From Candidatus Krumholzibacteriia bacterium (GTDB lineage: Bacteria; Krumholzibacteriota; Krumholzibacteriia; LZORAL124-64-63): a DNA stretch of 45,034 bases. The stretch lies in the NCBI GenBank assembly GCA_024763215.1, contig JANTFX010000013.1:1-45034 (forward strand). Reading direction: 5' to 3'. Below, piece by piece: positions 4,050-27,486 of the stretch (position 1 is the first letter of the stretch; every line of letters begins with the position of its first letter). Made by a program: the position numbers and the translations under genes. The notes beneath the pieces were generated by a model that searched no databases, was not told the DNA's origin, and worked only from the letters and a program-made list of their open reading frames with translations.

Positions 4050-4478
4050 CTAGCCGATGCCCTTCTTGAACACGTATTCGACAGCAGGGGGCGTGGGCTT
4101 TAGTGGGGATTCGGCGGTCGTGTTCTGTTCCCTGCGCAGAGCCTCCTTCAGCGTTTCCAGCTGGGAGGTGGTCCGCCGCAGGCGAGCGAGCAACAACTGG
4201 TCGGAATCAGGCCCACCGGTGCCGGTCCTGGCCACCGCGGGCGCAGCGGGCCGCAAACGGTCGGCGGCAGGGGAATAGGTATCGTGTTGACCGGAAACCA
4301 TTTGTCCAGATGGTTTGGCCCCGCCCTTGCGGCGCCCGGACCAGCGTCCCCGCAGATAGGAGATCAGGGAAACCACCAGCAGGGTCAGCCCGGCGGCCAC
4401 AGCGCCGGCCGCCCCCAGGAAAACCGGGCCCTGGCCCGCGATCAGATCGACCCCCTGTTTGATGATTTCCGTATCCAT
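4050..4478 (-). CDS. Small single-pass membrane protein of unknown function in the flagellar operon
   Basis: I do not recognise this 142-residue protein. Residues about 18-42 form one hydrophobic segment (GAAGAVAAGLTLLVVSLISY), followed directly by the basic stretch RGRWSGRRKGG, so the rest should be cytoplasmic. A proline/alanine-rich linker leads to a short predicted helix (about 93-118, LLARLRRTTSQLETLKEALR). ATG at 4478 is preceded by AGGAGATAGGGC, and the gene begins 11 bases after the stop of the preceding small gene, so the two are translated from one message. Position after fliA suggests a flagellar or motility accessory role, but nothing in the sequence defines it. Confidence 0.7.
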   Translation of the reverse strand: MDTEIIKQGVDLIAGQGPVFLGAAGAVAAGLTLLVVSLISYLRGRWSGRRKGGAKPSGQMVSGQHDTYSPAADRLRPAAPAVARTGTGGPDSDQLLLARLRRTTSQLETLKEALRREQNTTAESPLKPTPPAVEYVFKKGIG

Positions 4479-4854: not shown

Positions 4855-5820
4855 CTAGGTGGGCCAGACTCCCCCATGCCCGCCCAGCCAGGCCAGGTAC
4901 CCGCAGAGCTGGCACAGACTCATGGCGGCCATGATGTTCACCGGGTCAAGGTGTCCGGTGGTCTTTTGCACCAACCCCGCCACCTTTTCCTTTTCCGCGT
5001 GCGCCGGCCTGGACTGGATCTGGCGCGTGAGTTGGCCGATGGAAGATTTTCCCTCGTGCCGGTCGATCTTGCCCTTGAGCCGCAGGATGGCCTTGGTGTG
5101 GATCTGGCAGACGCGGCTTTCGGTCACATCCAGGATCTCCCCGATTTCCTTGAGGGTCAATTCCTCGTAGTAATAGAGCACCAGCACGAGCTGCTCCTTC
5201 TCGGGCAGCTCGGCAAGGCGCTGGCTGATCAGCCCCTTCATCTCGTTGCGGGCGATTTCCTGCTCGATGTTCTCGCTGGCCGGGTCGGCCAGGAAGTCCA
5301 CCAGGGAGGTGGAATTGTCACCGTCGGACCCGCCGGTTTCCGCATCCAGGGACATGATGGTCGCCACCGACACCTCACCCATCAGCCCATCGAGTTCCGC
5401 CAGGTCGATATCGAGTTCCCGGGCGATCTCCACGTCCGTGGCGGGCCGGCCGAGCTTCATCTCCAGGGAGCTGTAGGCTTCCTCGAGCTGCTTCGCCTTG
5501 CGACGCAACGAGCGGGGAAACCAGTCCTGGCTGCGCAGTTCATCCAGGATCGAGCCCCGGATGCGGGGGATGGCGTAGGTCTCGAATTTTATCATCCGCT
5601 GATGGTCGAAGTTGTCGATGGCCTGGATCAGCCCGAGCAGCCCCGCGGAAACCAGATCGTTGAAATCGACGTAATGCGGCAGGCCGATGGCCATACGGCC
5701 GGCCACGTATTTGACGATCCGGGCATAAATATCCACCAGCTGGCAGCGGGCTTCCTGGCAATCGGGCCCCTGCATGCGCTTCCAGACGTCCAGGTGGGCA
5801 ATTTGAGGGGTATCGGTCAT
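4855..5820 (-). CDS. fliA: RNA polymerase sigma factor FliA (sigma-28) with C-terminal extension
   Basis: Sigma-28 directs RNA polymerase to late flagellar promoters. Region 2 is clear at about 28-110 (DFNDLVSAGLLGLIQAIDNF, then IPRIRGSILDELR), region 3 at about 111-150 (LGRPATDVEIARELDI), and region 4 at about 200-252 (LPEKEQLVLVLYYYEELTLK, EIGEILDVTESRVCQIH). Typical FliA proteins end near residue 235-260. This one runs to 321, adding about 67 residues that include a C-Q-L-C pair near 303-306 and a hydrophobic Gly-rich end. The extension is in frame and ends at a TAG at 4857-4855. A sigma-54 promoter lies upstream, so FliA is made under control of the sigma-54 activators. Its promoters (flagellins, flgM) and its likely anti-sigma factor FlgM are in this window. 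Confidence 0.93.
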   Translation of the reverse strand: MTDTPQIAHLDVWKRMQGPDCQEARCQLVDIYARIVKYVAGRMAIGLPHYVDFNDLVSAGLLGLIQAIDNFDHQRMIKFETYAIPRIRGSILDELRSQDWFPRSLRRKAKQLEEAYSSLEMKLGRPATDVEIARELDIDLAELDGLMGEVSVATIMSLDAETGGSDGDNSTSLVDFLADPASENIEQEIARNEMKGLISQRLAELPEKEQLVLVLYYYEELTLKEIGEILDVTESRVCQIHTKAILRLKGKIDRHEGKSSIGQLTRQIQSRPAHAEKEKVAGLVQKTTGHLDPVNIMAAMSLCQLCGYLAWLGGHGGVWPT

Positions 5821-5901: not shown

Positions 5902-6147
5902 CTAAGGGAGATCACCCTGAGCCCTGGAGGCGGCCCCGACCTTGTCCTCGCGCGGTTTCTGTTCGCTGCCGGCCAACCTCATGGCCAGGACCATGGCCGC
6001 GCCGATGAAGAACACGCCCAGATAGGCCAGGAACACCTTCTTGACCGCGACCACGAAGGCCCAGCCCTGCCAGATTCCGGTGCAAAGAGTCAGGAACGCC
6101 CCGGCCAGGGCCAGGGTCTGAATGATCCGCTGCACGCCTCTAACCAT
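5902..6147 (-). CDS. Small membrane protein with two hydrophobic segments, at the usual flhG position
   Basis: An 81-residue protein with hydrophobic segments at about residues 10-30 (LALAGAFLTLCTGIWQGW) and 35-58 (KKVFLAYLGVFFIGAAMVLAM), and a short charged tail (AGSEQKPREDKVG). No family recognised. The ATG at 6147 overlaps the end of the flhF-like gene by 8 bases, implying coupled translation. An in-frame ATG at 6168 would add 7 residues, and a GTG at 6135 with AGAGGC before it is also possible, so the start is uncertain. In many bacteria the gene after flhF encodes the MinD-like ATPase FlhG/YlxH/FleN; here this membrane protein takes that place and is not related to it. Confidence 0.6.
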   Translation of the reverse strand: MVRGVQRIIQTLALAGAFLTLCTGIWQGWAFVVAVKKVFLAYLGVFFIGAAMVLAMRLAGSEQKPREDKVGAASRAQGDLP

Positions 6148-7306
6148 CCCTTCCCGGCATAATGTCATTGAGAACCGCGTCGATCATTTCCGGGGAGCCA
6201 TCGGTAAGGACCGCCCCCAGCAGGGCGTCCCCATGGGCGATTTCCACCTCGGTCCGGTTGTCCGTCCTGTAGGCGGCCAGGGAAACCGGCAGGGGCATTT
6301 TTTCCAGGATATCCAGCAACTTGCCCGTGCGTTTGAAGCGTGCCGGACGGCTGACCGCCAGCCAGTCGCAATTCCAGTGCCGCCCCTGCGTGGTCAGTTC
6401 ATTTCCGTCGGCCAGGTCGTAATCCAGGGGAACGACGAGGTGCCGGTGGAAACCGGCGTTGCCGGCCAGCCAGTCGTGAACCACCGGGGATTCGGACATG
6501 ACCGGCGCATCCAGGTCGGGCATCTCCAGGAGCACCGCGTCATACTGGTCGAAGTGCTCCCGGCAGCGCTGGAGCTGGTCCGGGTTCCTGATGATGGCTG
6601 CGTCGTAACCGTATCGGGCAGCCTCCACCTGAAGCCGCTTGATGGTGCCTTCGTGTTCCGGGAGCATGATCAGCAGGAGGGTCTTTCGCCCCATTTCCTG
6701 AAAACGCGCACAGGTGCTCAGCACGAGTTCCAGGCGCTGGGGGCGCGCATAGCCCAGAAAGGCATGGCAACCGAAAAAGCCGTCCCAGCCACAATCGGCG
6801 GCCGGAATCTGGCGTGCCAGCCATTGGCGGGCCCGGGGTCCGTCCTGGAATTCCTGTCCGGATTCAGCGGCATAGCGCTGGGCCAGGCGGGCGATGGTCC
6901 CCCCGCTGGTGCCGGCAGCCGCCAGCGCTCCGCCCAGACCCGACTCCAGGTCGGAAACGGCCGGCTTCCGGCTCTCCTGCAGGTCCCTGGAAATCTCGGC
7001 CATGAGGCCGTCGATGCGGTCCAGCTCAGCCGATATGGCTTGCTGCAGGGCGGGTTCGCCCATTGCCGAGATCTTCTTTTCCGCCGCCCCCCTGCTGTCC
7101 CTGGCCGGTGTGCGGGCTGCCGGTGGCAGGCCGGGTTTTGCCGCCTCCGCCTTGCCCAGGGTGACCTCCACCATCTTTTCCTGACCCAGACCGTTGGCCG
7201 ACCGCATGGTCACGGTGCGGGTGCCGAGGATCGCCGCGTCCTCCCCGTACATCAGGCGCACCTTGCGGTAGGCTTCCTTGAGGTTGGGCCCGGTGACGAT
7301 TTCCAC
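6140..7306 (-). CDS. flhF: FlhF-like protein with GTPase motifs lost (pseudo-GTPase)
   Basis: FlhF is an SRP-family GTPase that sets flagellar position and number. This 388-residue homologue keeps the FlhF B-domain start (MEIVTGPNLKEAYRKV, then GEDAAILGTRTV), a linker, and an N-type helical domain. In the G domain the P-loop region (about 174-190) reads WDGFFGCHAFLGYARP with no GxxGxGKT. The G3 position (about 259-264) reads LLEMPDL in place of DTAGR, and the G4 position (about 316-322) reads WLAVSRP in place of TKLD. The surrounding fold pattern is retained (MGRKTLLLIM, YDAAIIRNPDQL), and the frame is open with no stop, so this is a maintained protein and not a decayed gene. I chose GTG at 7306 because it aligns with the normal FlhF N-terminus and follows the flhA stop by 7 bases. 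An ATG at 7348 would add 14 residues inside flhA. It can hardly bind GTP in the usual way. Confidence 0.82.
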   Translation of the reverse strand: MEIVTGPNLKEAYRKVRLMYGEDAAILGTRTVTMRSANGLGQEKMVEVTLGKAEAAKPGLPPAARTPARDSRGAAEKKISAMGEPALQQAISAELDRIDGLMAEISRDLQESRKPAVSDLESGLGGALAAAGTSGGTIARLAQRYAAESGQEFQDGPRARQWLARQIPAADCGWDGFFGCHAFLGYARPQRLELVLSTCARFQEMGRKTLLLIMLPEHEGTIKRLQVEAARYGYDAAIIRNPDQLQRCREHFDQYDAVLLEMPDLDAPVMSESPVVHDWLAGNAGFHRHLVVPLDYDLADGNELTTQGRHWNCDWLAVSRPARFKRTGKLLDILEKMPLPVSLAAYRTDNRTEVEIAHGDALLGAVLTDGSPEMIDAVLNDIMPGRDG

Positions 7307-7313
7307 ACCGGCA

Positions 7314-9431
7314 TCAGCTCGAGGCTGAGAATTCCATCGGCTTTGCATGGGTCACTACCGTTCCTGTTGATTGCACCTTGGCCACCGAGGACACTTCGGT
7401 GTACCCGAGGACGGCCAGGTTGGGGTAAGTCGGCTCCACGAGCCGCTTGACGAAAAGTCTGATGGGGGTGGGCACCAGGAGCACCGGGGGCTTCCCCGCC
7501 GCATAGGCGGCGCGCAGGACGTTCTCCATCTGCCCCAGGAAGTCCCGGGTGAAACCCGGGTCGAGGGCCACGCCCTGGGCCTGCTCGCTTTGCTGGGCCG
7601 CCTGGATCAGCACCTGTTCGGTTCCCGGGTGCAGGGACACCACGTTCAGGCTCCCGTCCGGTTCGCAGTACAGGGCGGTGATGGAGCGGGCCAGAGCTTC
7701 GCGCACCTTGCCGGTCAAAAAATCGGTCCCCAGGCCGGTGCCGCTGTAGTTGGCCAGGGTCTCCAGGATGGTCACGATATCCCGCACGGGGATCCGCTCG
7801 TGCAACAGGGCCTTCAGGACGTTGTGCAGCGTGTTGACGGGCACCTTGTCCGGAACCAGGTCCTCGATCAGGGCCGGGGCGAACTCCCGCACGGACTCGC
7901 ACATGTCCTTGATGTCCTGCCGGCTGAGAAGCTCGTCGGCGTGGCTGCGGATGATCTCCGACAGGTGCGTGGCCAGAACGGCGGCGGGCTCGACCACGGT
8001 GTAGCCTTCCCGCTCCGCCTCGGGTTTCTGGTCGGGATGGATCCAGACCGCGGGCAGGTTGAAGGCGGGCTCGGTGGTCTGCTCCCCCTCCAGGGGTCCG
8101 GCGTCCTGGCGGGTGCTCATGGCCAGCAGCTTATCCGGGAACAGGACCGCCCGGCCGATCTCCACCCCCTTGAGCTTGATGAGGTAATCCTGGGCGCCGA
8201 GCTGCAGGTTGTCCCGCACCCTTATGGGATGGACGAAGATCCCCAGCTCGTTGCCAACCTGGCGTCGGATGTTCCCCACCCTGTGCAGCAGGTCTCCGCC
8301 CCGCCCCTCGTCAACCAGGGGGATCAAACCGTAACCGATCTCGAGCTCCAGCTTGTCCAGGACGAAGAGTTCCTCCCCCCGGATGCCGTCCGGCTCGGTC
8401 TGGGCCTCAGCCTTGGCCTGCTCGGCTTCCTCTGCGGCGGCCTGTTGCTTGTCGTCGTAATTCCTCACGCGCCTGCTCATGGCCCTGCCCACGATCGCCG
8501 TGGTGATGGAGAAGAAAATGAACGGCCCCGTGGGCAGACCCGGGATCAGGCCCAGCACCATGATGGCGCCCGAGGCCAGGTACAGCGCCTTGGGCTGGCG
8601 GAAGATCTGCAGGGTCACCGTCTGGCCCAGGTTCAGGGAACCGCTCGTTCTGGTCACAACCAGGCCTGCGGCGGTGGAGATCAACAGGGCGGGGATCTGG
8701 CTGACCAGGCCGTCGCCGACGGTCAGCACCGTGAACTTGCGCAGGGCCTCGGGGGCGGACATGCCCATCTGGAGCATCCCGATGATGAAGCCGCCGGCGA
8801 TGTTGACGACGGTGATCATGATGCCGGCGATGGCGTCGCCCTTGACGAACTTGCTGGCACCGTCCATGGCCCCGAAGAACTCGGCCTCGCTGGCGATCTC
8901 CTCACGGCGACGCCGGGCCTCGGCCTCGTCGATCAGGCCCGTGTTGAGGTCCGCGTCGATGGCCATCTGCTTGCCGGGCATGGCGTCCAGGGTGAAGCGG
9001 GCCGCCACCTCGGCGATGCGGCCGCTGCCCTTGGTGATGACCATGAAGTTGATGATCACCAGGATCGTGAAGACGATCACGCCGATGACGTAGTTCCCCC
9101 CCACCACGAAGTCGCCGAAACTCTTGATGACCTGCCCCGCCATGCCCCGGCTGAGGATCAGCCGGGTGGAGGCCACGTTCAGCGACAGCCTCATCAACGT
9201 CATGATCAGCAGCAGCGAGGGGAAGCTGTTGAATTGCAGGGGCTCCTTCAGGTACAGGGCCACCAGCAGCACCGTGACCGAGAAGGCGATGCTGAAGGTG
9301 AGCATCAGATCCATGAGCATGGGAGGAACCGGAACCACCATCAGACCCAGGACCATCATGACGGCCACGGCGCTCAGGACGTTGCTGTTGGCCAGGATCA
9401 GGTCGCGGTTGATGACGTTTTTCTGCTCCAC
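7314..9431 (-). CDS. flhA: Flagellar export gate protein FlhA
   Basis: FlhA (705 residues, normal length) forms the nonameric ring of the flagellar type III export apparatus and couples export to proton flow. The N-terminal half has about eight membrane segments, starting at residue 17. The conserved cytoplasmic loop is present (AEFFGAMDGASKFVKGDAIA near 205-225), as is LMRLSLNVASTRLIL. The C-terminal half is the cytoplasmic FlhA-C domain that docks chaperone-substrate complexes. The start is GTG at 9431, with GGAG 8 bases upstream and 20 bases after the flhB stop. It belongs to the fliP-fliQ-fliR-flhB-flhA run. Confidence 0.96.
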   Translation of the reverse strand: MEQKNVINRDLILANSNVLSAVAVMMVLGLMVVPVPPMLMDLMLTFSIAFSVTVLLVALYLKEPLQFNSFPSLLLIMTLMRLSLNVASTRLILSRGMAGQVIKSFGDFVVGGNYVIGVIVFTILVIINFMVITKGSGRIAEVAARFTLDAMPGKQMAIDADLNTGLIDEAEARRRREEIASEAEFFGAMDGASKFVKGDAIAGIMITVVNIAGGFIIGMLQMGMSAPEALRKFTVLTVGDGLVSQIPALLISTAAGLVVTRTSGSLNLGQTVTLQIFRQPKALYLASGAIMVLGLIPGLPTGPFIFFSITTAIVGRAMSRRVRNYDDKQQAAAEEAEQAKAEAQTEPDGIRGEELFVLDKLELEIGYGLIPLVDEGRGGDLLHRVGNIRRQVGNELGIFVHPIRVRDNLQLGAQDYLIKLKGVEIGRAVLFPDKLLAMSTRQDAGPLEGEQTTEPAFNLPAVWIHPDQKPEAEREGYTVVEPAAVLATHLSEIIRSHADELLSRQDIKDMCESVREFAPALIEDLVPDKVPVNTLHNVLKALLHERIPVRDIVTILETLANYSGTGLGTDFLTGKVREALARSITALYCEPDGSLNVVSLHPGTEQVLIQAAQQSEQAQGVALDPGFTRDFLGQMENVLRAAYAAGKPPVLLVPTPIRLFVKRLVEPTYPNLAVLGYTEVSSVAKVQSTGTVVTHAKPMEFSASS

Positions 9432-24150: not shown

Positions 24151-24958
24151 GGGCCTCCTCCGCCGGTTCATCGGCATCCTCGGCCACCGGCCCAGCCAGG
24201 GACTCGAGGTTCGCCTCGGTGCCGGGCACCGGGCCGGGGTCCCGGCCCGCAAGGGTGCCCACCTGCTCCTGAACCATCTGGGCCAGGGCCTCTAGCTGCC
24301 CCTCCAGTGTGGCATCCCACTCCCGCCCGCCGGAGCCGACGGCGCAGCCACCCTTGCTGATCCTGCGGTCGGAGACCACGGTCTCGATGCGCAGGGCCTT
24401 GAGCAGATCCGGGTTGTCCTCGAGCCAGGCCGCATCCTCGGGGTTGACCGCGATTTCAAGTGGATGGCCCGCCGGGACCTTGTACAGGGTGGTTTCCAGG
24501 CAACGGACCAAAACTTCCCGGTCCAGTTCGATCTTCGCCCGCAGGATCCTCTCGGCCAGCTGCACCGCAAGCCCGATGCATGATTTGGCCATCTCCTGCA
24601 ACTCGCCGTTGACCGCGGCGCTGAAGGCATCGGCCCAGGCCTGAAAGGCCCGCCGGGATTCCTGGAGATCGGCCGCGAAAGCCTCCTCCTGCTCCCTGGC
24701 CCTTGCCTCGTATTTCTCCGCCACGTCGATTTCCACCAGTTCGAACAGGGTGGCCCGTTCCTCCTGGGTCAGATGGGCCAGCAGGGCGGCGTTGCTTGCA
24801 AAGCCGGCTTCTCGGCGGAAACGCACGGCGCTGGGGGTGGGCTGGCCTTCAGCCCGGGCGCCGGCCCCTTCACCGGCGAAGGCCGCGGCGGCTTCCTGGG
24901 CGCCGTTGACCACCTTTGACTGTCCGGGATCAAAGGGCTCAGGAGACCATTTCTGCAT
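24131..24958 (-). CDS. fliH: Flagellar export ATPase regulator FliH
   Basis: 275 residues. The middle is helical and charged (about 60-150) and the C-terminal half carries the FliH/YscL/V-ATPase E-subunit-like domain: LAVQLAERILRAKIELDREV, LYKVPAGHPLEIAVNPEDAA, VSDRRISKGGCAVGS. FliH holds FliI at the export gate. The C-terminus has an acidic tail (AEDADEPAEEAHAP) beyond the usual end. It overlaps fliG by 20 bases and fliI by 20 bases. Confidence 0.9.
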   Translation of the reverse strand: MQKWSPEPFDPGQSKVVNGAQEAAAAFAGEGAGARAEGQPTPSAVRFRREAGFASNAALLAHLTQEERATLFELVEIDVAEKYEARAREQEEAFAADLQESRRAFQAWADAFSAAVNGELQEMAKSCIGLAVQLAERILRAKIELDREVLVRCLETTLYKVPAGHPLEIAVNPEDAAWLEDNPDLLKALRIETVVSDRRISKGGCAVGSGGREWDATLEGQLEALAQMVQEQVGTLAGRDPGPVPGTEANLESLAGPVAEDADEPAEEAHAPDLG

Positions 24959-25940
24959 CCTTGCCGCCCTTTCCGAGAGTGATGGTTCCGGCTTCCTCCA
25001 GGCTCCTGATCACTTCCACGATCCGCTGCTGGGCCTCTTCCACCTCGGACAACCGCACCGGCCCCATGTACTCCATGTCCTCGGCGATACCCTCGGCGGC
25101 CCGCTTGGACATGTTCGAGAAGATCCGCTGCCGGATCTCGTCGGTCGCCCCCTTGAGGGCCATGGTCAGTTCCTTGCCGTCGATCTCCTTGAGGATCTCC
25201 TGGATGCTGGCGTCGCTGAGGGTCACGATATCCTCGAAGATGAACATGAGGTTGTTGACCTGGTTGGCCACCTCGTCGTCGATTTCCCGCATCTCGTCCA
25301 GGATCTCCTGCCACACCTCGCGCTCGATCTCGTTGAGGACCTCGGCCACCTGCTTCTTGCCCCCGTACTTGGTTTCACGCGCCCGGATCTCACCCTGGAG
25401 CTGCCCGGCCAGGACCTTTTCCACCGCCTCGAGTATCTCCGGGTTGGGGGCTTCCAGAACGGCCATGCGATGGGCGACCTCCCCTTGCAACTCGGCCGGC
25501 AACAAAGCCAGGATGGGGCCGCTGCTGCGCGGGTCCATGTGCGCCAGGACCACGGCGATGGTCTGGGGATGCTCGTTCTTCAGGTAGTTGGCGATGGTCA
25601 GGGAGTCGACGTTCTTCAGGTGCTCGAAGCTCTTGATCTCGCTGTAGCTGGTCACGCGGCTGAGCATGGACGACGCGGCGTGGGTGCCGAAACCGGATTC
25701 GAGGATCTGCTTGGCCGTTTCTTCCCCGCCGAAGGCGATCCCGCTGATGCGGCTGCTGATGTTGATGAAATCCCCCAGGACCGCCTTCTTCTCCTTGAAG
25801 GTGACATGCCCTATGCCGGCGATCTCGTGAGTGATGTCCTCCACCATGTTCTGGGGCAACTTCGCCATGACCTTGCCCGCAACGTCCGGGCCAAGGGCCA
25901 TGATGAAAACCGCCGCCTTGCGCACCGATTCATCGTTCAC
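24939..25940 (-). CDS. fliG: Flagellar motor switch protein FliG
   Basis: 333 residues in the three-domain layout. The EHPQ motif of the middle domain is present (LKNEHPQTIAVVLAHMDPRS near 124-143). The C-terminal torque helix carries the charged residues that contact MotA (LKGATDEIRQRIFSNMSKRA). FliG couples stators to the rotor. Start is GTG at 25940, with GGGAG seven bases upstream and only one base after the fliF stop. Confidence 0.96.
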   Translation of the reverse strand: MNDESVRKAAVFIMALGPDVAGKVMAKLPQNMVEDITHEIAGIGHVTFKEKKAVLGDFINISSRISGIAFGGEETAKQILESGFGTHAASSMLSRVTSYSEIKSFEHLKNVDSLTIANYLKNEHPQTIAVVLAHMDPRSSGPILALLPAELQGEVAHRMAVLEAPNPEILEAVEKVLAGQLQGEIRARETKYGGKKQVAEVLNEIEREVWQEILDEMREIDDEVANQVNNLMFIFEDIVTLSDASIQEILKEIDGKELTMALKGATDEIRQRIFSNMSKRAAEGIAEDMEYMGPVRLSEVEEAQQRIVEVIRSLEEAGTITLGKGGKDAEMVS

Positions 25941-25941
25941 T

Positions 25942-27486
25942 TCATTCTCCCGCCGCTTGCTGTGACATTTCGCCCAGGTCGATGCCGTGGATCCAGGACT
26001 GGATGACCTCGGCCACCCGCTCGGGGTTTTCCGCGGCGAAATCCTGGATGTCCGAGATGACCTGGTCGTTCATCTCGGGGATGCCGTCGAAGTGCTGGGG
26101 ATCGGCACGGCCGCCGCCGGCTGTGCCGCGCGTCCGGCCGGCACCGGCACCGGCCACCGCGCCGGACCCGGCCGCCAGCAGGGCCGTCAGGTTCTTGCGC
26201 AGGACCAGGGCCATGACCAGCATCATGATGACCAGAACGACCTTGCCGCCGTACTGCGTCACCAGCCCGATCAGATCGGGCGAAACCGCCCCGCCACCGG
26301 CAAAAGGCTCGGCCGGAGACTGGAAGCGCATGTTGACCACTTCGACCTGGTCACCGCGGGTGGCGTTCAGGCCCACCGCCCGCTCGACCACCTTTTTGAG
26401 CTGACCCAGTTCGTCGTCGCTCAGGGGCGTGTAGACAGGCTCCCCGCCGTCGGCGCCCGGTTCGTAATGCCCGTCCACGAACACCGCCACCGAGAGATTC
26501 TCGATCCCGCCCGTCTGGGAAACGACATGCTCCAGGGTCTTGTTGATCTCGTAGTTGGTCGTGCTGTTTTCGCTCGTCTCGCCGGTCGACGGGACGCTGC
26601 TCTCCTCCCGCACCTCGCTGCGCACGACGGTGGCGGCCGGGTCGTAGATCTCGCGCTGGCGATCGATCTTCTCGAAATTCAGGGTCGCATCGACCTTCAC
26701 GATGGATTTGCCCGGACCCAGGACCTTGTCCAGCATGCTGGAAGCCTTCTCGGCCAGGTGGTCCTCCACTTCCTTGCGCAGGGCGAGCTGCGTCTCGCTG
26801 CGGCCGATCTCGTCGTCGCGAACCGCGTCGGACAGCACCTTCCCGGCCTGGTCCAGAACCGTGACGTTCGCGGGTTCCAGGTTCTCCACGGCACCGGCCA
26901 CCAGGTTCTGGATTCCGGTGATCTGTTGCCCGTCCAGCCCGCGTCCCCGGCCCAGCTGCAGCACGACGCTGGCGGTCGGCTCGGCGGCCATCTTCTTGAA
27001 GATCGAAGGTTTGGGCATCACCAGGTGGACACGCGCTGACTGGATTCCTTGCAGTGACTCAACGGTTTTGGTCAGTTCGCCCTCCAGGGCCCGCTTGAAA
27101 TTCACGTTCTGCAGGAACTCGGTCAGGCCGTACTGGTTGCCGTCGAAGATCTCGAAGCCCACGGTTCCGGAGGACGGCACCCCCTTGGCGGCCAGGTCCA
27201 GCCGCATCTTGTCCTTCATGCTGCTGGGAACCAGGATGGTGGTCCCGCCGTTCTTCAGCTTGGTGGGCACGTCCTGCTTGGCCAGTTCCTGCAAGGCCAT
27301 CGAAGCGTCCTCGGGCGTCAGATTCGTGAACAGAACGGCCATTTCATCCTTCTGGAGCCAGAACGAGAAGACCACGACGCAGATGATCGAGGCGGTGCTC
27401 ACGGCGCCCAGGATGACCTTCTGGTTGAAGGAAAGGCCCTTGAAGCGCGCGCCCAGGCTGTCCATGGTCTGCTTGAATCCGTTCAC
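25942..27486 (-). CDS. fliF: Flagellar MS-ring protein FliF
   Basis: 514 residues. Two membrane helices bracket the periplasmic ring-building domains: about 23-45 (KVILGAVSTASIICVVVFSF) and about 415-435 (VVLVIMMLVMALVLRKNL). The YscJ/FliF domain shows ELTKTVESLQGIQSARVHLV and PTASVVLQL. The C-terminal tail that binds FliG is present (ENPERVAEVIQSWIHG). Start is GTG at 27486, with GAGG seven bases before it. Head of fliF-G-H-I-J, 41 bases after fliE. Confidence 0.96.
   Translation of the reverse strand: MNGFKQTMDSLGARFKGLSFNQKVILGAVSTASIICVVVFSFWLQKDEMAVLFTNLTPEDASMALQELAKQDVPTKLKNGGTTILVPSSMKDKMRLDLAAKGVPSSGTVGFEIFDGNQYGLTEFLQNVNFKRALEGELTKTVESLQGIQSARVHLVMPKPSIFKKMAAEPTASVVLQLGRGRGLDGQQITGIQNLVAGAVENLEPANVTVLDQAGKVLSDAVRDDEIGRSETQLALRKEVEDHLAEKASSMLDKVLGPGKSIVKVDATLNFEKIDRQREIYDPAATVVRSEVREESSVPSTGETSENSTTNYEINKTLEHVVSQTGGIENLSVAVFVDGHYEPGADGGEPVYTPLSDDELGQLKKVVERAVGLNATRGDQVEVVNMRFQSPAEPFAGGGAVSPDLIGLVTQYGGKVVLVIMMLVMALVLRKNLTALLAAGSGAVAGAGAGRTRGTAGGGRADPQHFDGIPEMNDQVISDIQDFAAENPERVAEVIQSWIHGIDLGEMSQQAAGE

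Follow-up and report, generated by a model that had tools for sequence, protein, structure and literature searches.

A probable FlhF-derived pseudo-GTPase lacking GTP-binding motifs in flagellated Krumholzibacteriota

The literature describes FlhF as a switch that depends on GTP and is always paired with FlhG; the two genes, flhF and flhG, are stated to occur together consistently (PMC12826062). In S. putrefaciens, the FliG-interaction domain (FID) of FlhF binds FliG on its own, and the NG domain binds HubP regardless of GTP or GDP (PMC11236974). V. alginolyticus FlhF works without GTP hydrolysis; flagellation fails or is impaired in mutants of motifs thought to be needed for GTP binding (PMC6092412). 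In P. aeruginosa, the contact between FlhF and FliG is favored by, and reported to need, GTP (PMC12713375). From these Vibrio and P. aeruginosa requirements, it follows that a nucleotide-free FlhF must have compensated. A second protein of interest, FlgV, is a flagellar protein with two transmembrane (TM) helices encoded next to flhG and fliA (PMC10802407). The literature searched contains no report of a motif-less FlhF maintained under selection without FlhG. Here, we analyze such a candidate, which we read, with a probability of roughly 0.7, as a constrained FlhF-derived pseudo-GTPase that tethers FliG and FliF without nucleotide and still works in flagellar assembly.

Gene neighborhood and descent from FlhF

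The window, which is the whole 45,034-nucleotide stretch of DNA analyzed, comes from Ca. Krumholzibacteriota, and a profile built from the homologue alignment matched relatives named Candidatus Krumholzibacteriota. The features that define the locus are:

7314..9431, minus strand: flhA (TIGR01398, E 1.5e-258)
6140..7348, minus strand: flhF-like gene, 402 aa, with FID/B, N and G domains and without GTP-binding motifs
7151..7306, minus strand: FID of the flhF-like protein, residues 15-66, strand-helix-strand-strand in the model
5902..6168, minus strand: small two-TM protein, 88 aa, at the usual flhG position
4855..5820, minus strand: fliA (sigma-28; TIGR02479, E 1.7e-78)
24942..25940, minus strand: fliG, the expected FID partner
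25945..27486, minus strand: fliF

The window also encodes fliI, flgE, motA, fliM, flhB and one flagellin, and its flagellar gene set looks complete. The order is flhA, flhF-like gene, small two-TM gene and fliA; the gene has the flagellar surroundings and adjacent flhA of a typical flhF, and flhG is missing from its place directly downstream. The first-pass annotation correctly located the gene between flhA and fliA but mentioned neither the 88-aa reading frame before fliA nor the absence of flhG. The flhF-like frame is open throughout on the minus strand. Its span, given at first as 6140-7306 (388 codons), needs revision: the start is probably ATG 7348 (402 codons) rather than GTG 7306 because in most homologues the corresponding position within the 3' end of flhA also carries a start codon. 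From ATG 7348, the 5' end overlaps the 3' end of flhA (stop at 7314), and this overlap could itself constrain the codons found at the start position in homologues.

Taken alone, the flhF-like protein matched no Pfam family, gave chance-level matches only in a phmmer search of the PDB and, as a single query, found no match in a search of genome contigs. It does match the NCBIfam equivalog TIGR03499 (FlhF) across the B and N region, which bears out the B-domain homology proposed earlier, though weakly (37.9 bits, E 2e-9, against a cut-off of 174 bits). All aligned homologues (35/35) match the same model, with a best E of 1.3e-26, and a homologue profile run against solved structures places FlhF 8r9r (4.7e-15) and then 2px0 (1.5e-12) as its top two matches. 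In the AlphaFold2 model (pLDDT 86), the protein adopts an SRP-type NG fold, and Foldseek returns FlhF 8r9r and 2px3 as the top two PDB matches. This predicted retention of the FlhF fold rules out an unrelated fold; a viral structure library gave nothing useful for the model. The N-terminal 55 residues are modeled as strand-helix-strand-strand, and the best PDB match of the FID profile is 9en1 (E 0.0012), a short FlhF chain that we take to be the FID structure of PMC11236974. Profiles and model together indicate that the gene descends from FlhF.

The window genome (93.6% complete) contains no detectable second FlhF. Contigs C58 and C37 carry its only strong SRP-GTPase matches, which are of Ffh and FtsY type.

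Graded loss of the GTP-binding motifs

Each of the four motif segments of the FlhF GTPase can be placed on the window protein by alignment, and each has been replaced:

6731..6754, minus strand: former P-loop, residues 199-206, GYARPQRL in place of GxxGxGKT
6641..6664, minus strand: former G2 (I-box), residues 229-236, LPEHEGTI, with DTxR gone
6509..6529, minus strand: former G3, residues 274-280, LEMPDLD in place of DTAGR
6329..6355, minus strand: former G4, residues 332-340, VSRPARFKR in place of TKxD

The P-loop, the DTxR of the I-box, the DTAGR of G3 and the TKxD of G4 are thus all missing, their places taken by GYARPQRL, PEHEG, EMPDL and SRPA, respectively. The strings FFGCHAFLGYARP, LLEMPDL and AVSRP quoted at first pass agree exactly with the minus-strand translation, and the description of an intact gene that has lost all its GTP-binding motifs stands. 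In the window model, a helix begins at R202, three positions before that of a lysine-bearing relative (L030), whose model has a normal loop at 171-175 and a helix from K176. Two more genomes of the window's genus (G002 and G003) also lack the P-loop, reading FDRHARQE and ADRSVRQD, and an assembly artefact is ruled out on this ground. We infer from these replacements that the window protein does not bind GTP.

A survey of 80 metagenome-assembled genomes, all Krumholzibacteriota, with families and genera given as codes (f and g), places this loss in a series. Motifs were aligned for about 50 homologues. None of the homologues read has the canonical, catalytic DTxR (I-box) or DTAGR (G3); a PxHxG segment takes the place of the former, and DTPC or DMPxL that of the latter. 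The Walker-A lysine is kept in families f3 and f7, in 2/4 rows of f4 and 2/3 rows of f5, and in four genera of the window's own family (g3, g4, g6 and g11). A 25-row clade of that family carries R (or T, Q, S) at the lysine position, with R in 20 of the 25 lysine-less rows. The P-loop pattern itself is lost in the window's genus (three genomes with the segment), in genus g7 (two) and in one g12 genome. A tree that leaves out the P-loop columns requires the lysine to have been lost four times: once at the base of the 25-row clade and three times within f4 and f5. The alignment thus points to a G2/G3 change common to all homologues read, and to a clade-wide loss of the lysine before the P-loop vanished. 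Alignment of relatives, proposed earlier as a check on whether the loss is fixed, finds it in the two other genomes of the window's genus as well (G002, G003), as the end of a graded series rather than as one step in this gene.

Two side observations concern the same alignment. The PxHxG(E/D) segment is conserved in the place of DTxR (L026-L049, L088-L105); its P, H and G are invariant in 16/16 lysine-bearing rows, and H and G are relaxed in rows without lysine. Two f2 homologues away from flhA (L086 and L087) were left out of the flagellar FlhF count; they encode an NG-like protein that has GxGKTT and whose neighbors include a glgC-like gene; this protein may be an FlhF leftover or an FlhF put to new use.

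The best-surviving alternative, itself unlikely, is that a rebuilt site lets the NG domain go on binding a nucleotide or some other anionic ligand. Basic residues persist near the old site (R202 and R205 in the window), the lysine is most often exchanged for R, and the new G2 segment has a conserved P216, often with H218 and G220 (388-aa numbering). Against such a site, the phosphate-loop glycines are gone in the window's genus, where the helix is predicted to start early, and G4, the motif that recognizes the base in SRP GTPases, has gone as well.

Missing FlhG and small membrane proteins

No FlhG is found among the ParA/CbiA matches of the window genome, which look like Soj, other ParA, Mrp and ferredoxin-MinD types, and no MinD-type gene adjoins any homologue. 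Across the 80 genomes, a B. subtilis YlxH query gave one strong match (137 bits, in G077) and otherwise matches of at most 52 bits, at the Mrp/ParA level. The G077 match (L113, contig C112) was rejected as an FlhG of the phylum: the contig looks foreign and the genome has 7% contamination. Apart from this match, no FlhG was found in the 80 genomes. L113 is a fusion of a J-domain with a MinD/FlhG-type part; its neighbors are a PEP-CTERM-like gene and a sigma-54 regulator. Separately, the window genome encodes a ParA-type ATPase (L083, contig C95) whose C-terminal end reads as a CBM48-like carbohydrate-binding region, and a near-identical start of L083 is found at the end of contig C14. A search for the HubP/FimV landmark with a single model, TIGR03505, found none (best 12.6 bits, E 0.32).

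The two-TM protein at the flhG position is conserved across flagellated families (L042-L061, L089-L105). It has a polar tail, is often shorter than 100 aa and follows a consensus of about GLWxDWxxxxTLKRxxxxYLGFFxLG. Pfam and NCBIfam searches gave nothing convincing for it, the matches to MPC and other Pfam families being at chance level. Like FlgV, the 88-aa protein has two TM helices and a polar tail and is encoded between flhF and fliA; flhG is absent beside it, unlike the FlgV setting, and the likeness is one of architecture and position. The two-TM protein is possibly a membrane partner of the flhF-like NG domain. Another small protein, with one TM segment, is encoded after fliA (window 4050-4478), with equivalents at L046, L048, L091, L093 and L094. 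In families f3 and f7, its C-terminus is helix-turn-helix-like (GxxExxIAxxLxL...LYMHVG), a part that is missing in the window version. It is a possible FlhF partner of FipA/DUF2802 type, an identity that Pfam did not confirm.

A phylum without FlhG, a HubP/FimV landmark that was not found and an uncharacterized small membrane protein adjoining the gene would also suit a second alternative, also unlikely and slightly behind the rebuilt site, in which the protein has a different flagellar job, such as an export or gene-regulation adaptor, apart from placement and number. However, the FID, whose known function is FliG binding, is among the better conserved segments of the homologue alignment, and FliG and FliF are encoded in the same window.

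Selection and the nucleotide-free tether

Constraint is unevenly distributed along the protein. In lysine-less rows, mean entropy is 1.98 bits in the P-loop columns, against 1.09 bits in lysine-bearing rows, and 1.68 bits in the I-box, against 1.39 bits; no other region rises, entropy in the FID, the N domain and the bulk of the G domain being equal or lower in lysine-less rows. Nei-Gojobori estimates of flhF dN/dS, with dS high in most pairs, come to 0.32 both for the window against G002 and for a lysine-bearing pair; K-to-R pairs give 0.10, 0.40 and 0.17. In every pair, flhF has about 1.8-2.5 times the dN/dS of fliA. The open frame and synteny are retained in nearly all genomes of the window's family. 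The dN/dS estimates indicate that the gene is under purifying selection, whether the lysine is present or not. Because the P-loop is variable, the rest conserved and dN/dS about 0.1-0.4, we read this as a loss of nucleotide constraint only, in a gene that is not decaying. The least probable alternative, in which the family has lost FlhF function and what is left of the gene is slowly wearing away behind an open frame, would account for the stepwise loss of motifs, for flhF evolving about twice as fast as its neighbor fliA and for members without the P-loop pattern in three genera, but it sits poorly with the retained frame and synteny, with low dN/dS whose ratio to fliA does not depend on the lysine, and with an FID, beta-1 and remaining G domain that stay conserved while the P-loop columns vary. 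A second FlhF, relaxed selection and an unrelated fold, any of which would have counted against the original proposal, were all looked for and none was encountered.

In the preferred reading, that of a tether, the FID would hold FliG and, through it, FliF, and the SRP-type NG domain would act as a module that stays docked permanently, perhaps to a membrane protein such as the adjacent two-TM protein. Flagellar timing or number would then be set without a GTP/FlhG cycle. Most economically, the FlhG-driven cycle and hydrolysis may have gone first in this lineage and binding afterwards, leaving the tether. It is somewhat better than an even chance that Krumholzibacteriota place their flagella by an FlhF descendant turned nucleotide-free structural tether, with number and site controlled without the FlhF-FlhG switch. 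The phylum lacks FlhG and the hydrolysis motifs; the Walker-A lysine went in one family, and the entire binding site in several genera, the window's among them. The first-pass annotation had offered either a scaffold or control by other means; FlhF fold, purifying selection and the lack of a second FlhF and of FlhG favor this pair of options, and the scaffold itself is put forward here as a proposal. A GTP-dependent switch seems to have become a switch-less scaffold. FlhF kept, FlhG absent and a GTP site lost stepwise under selection amount to a natural experiment on the purpose of the nucleotide: the phylum separates the tethering role of FlhF (FliG/FliF recruitment) from its switch role, and a graded series of proteins is available, from lysine-bearing to motif-less.

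Among described systems, FlhF itself (2px3, 8r9r, 9en1) is closest, with the same FID/B-N-G order, predicted NG fold, flhA/fliA vicinity and descent; the window protein differs in lacking the P-loop, I-box, G3 and G4 motifs and in falling below the TIGR03499 cut-off, and the window genome differs in lacking FlhG. The SRP GTPases Ffh and FtsY share the NG fold with the window protein but have an M or A domain where it has the FID, and the window genome has its own, separate Ffh- and FtsY-type genes (PF00448 at E about 1e-74). Laboratory FlhF GTPase-motif mutants of V. alginolyticus and V. cholerae have lost GTPase motif residues, as has the window protein; however, the binding-defective mutants impair flagella (PMC6092412), whereas the loss in the window is natural, fixed and apparently under selection.
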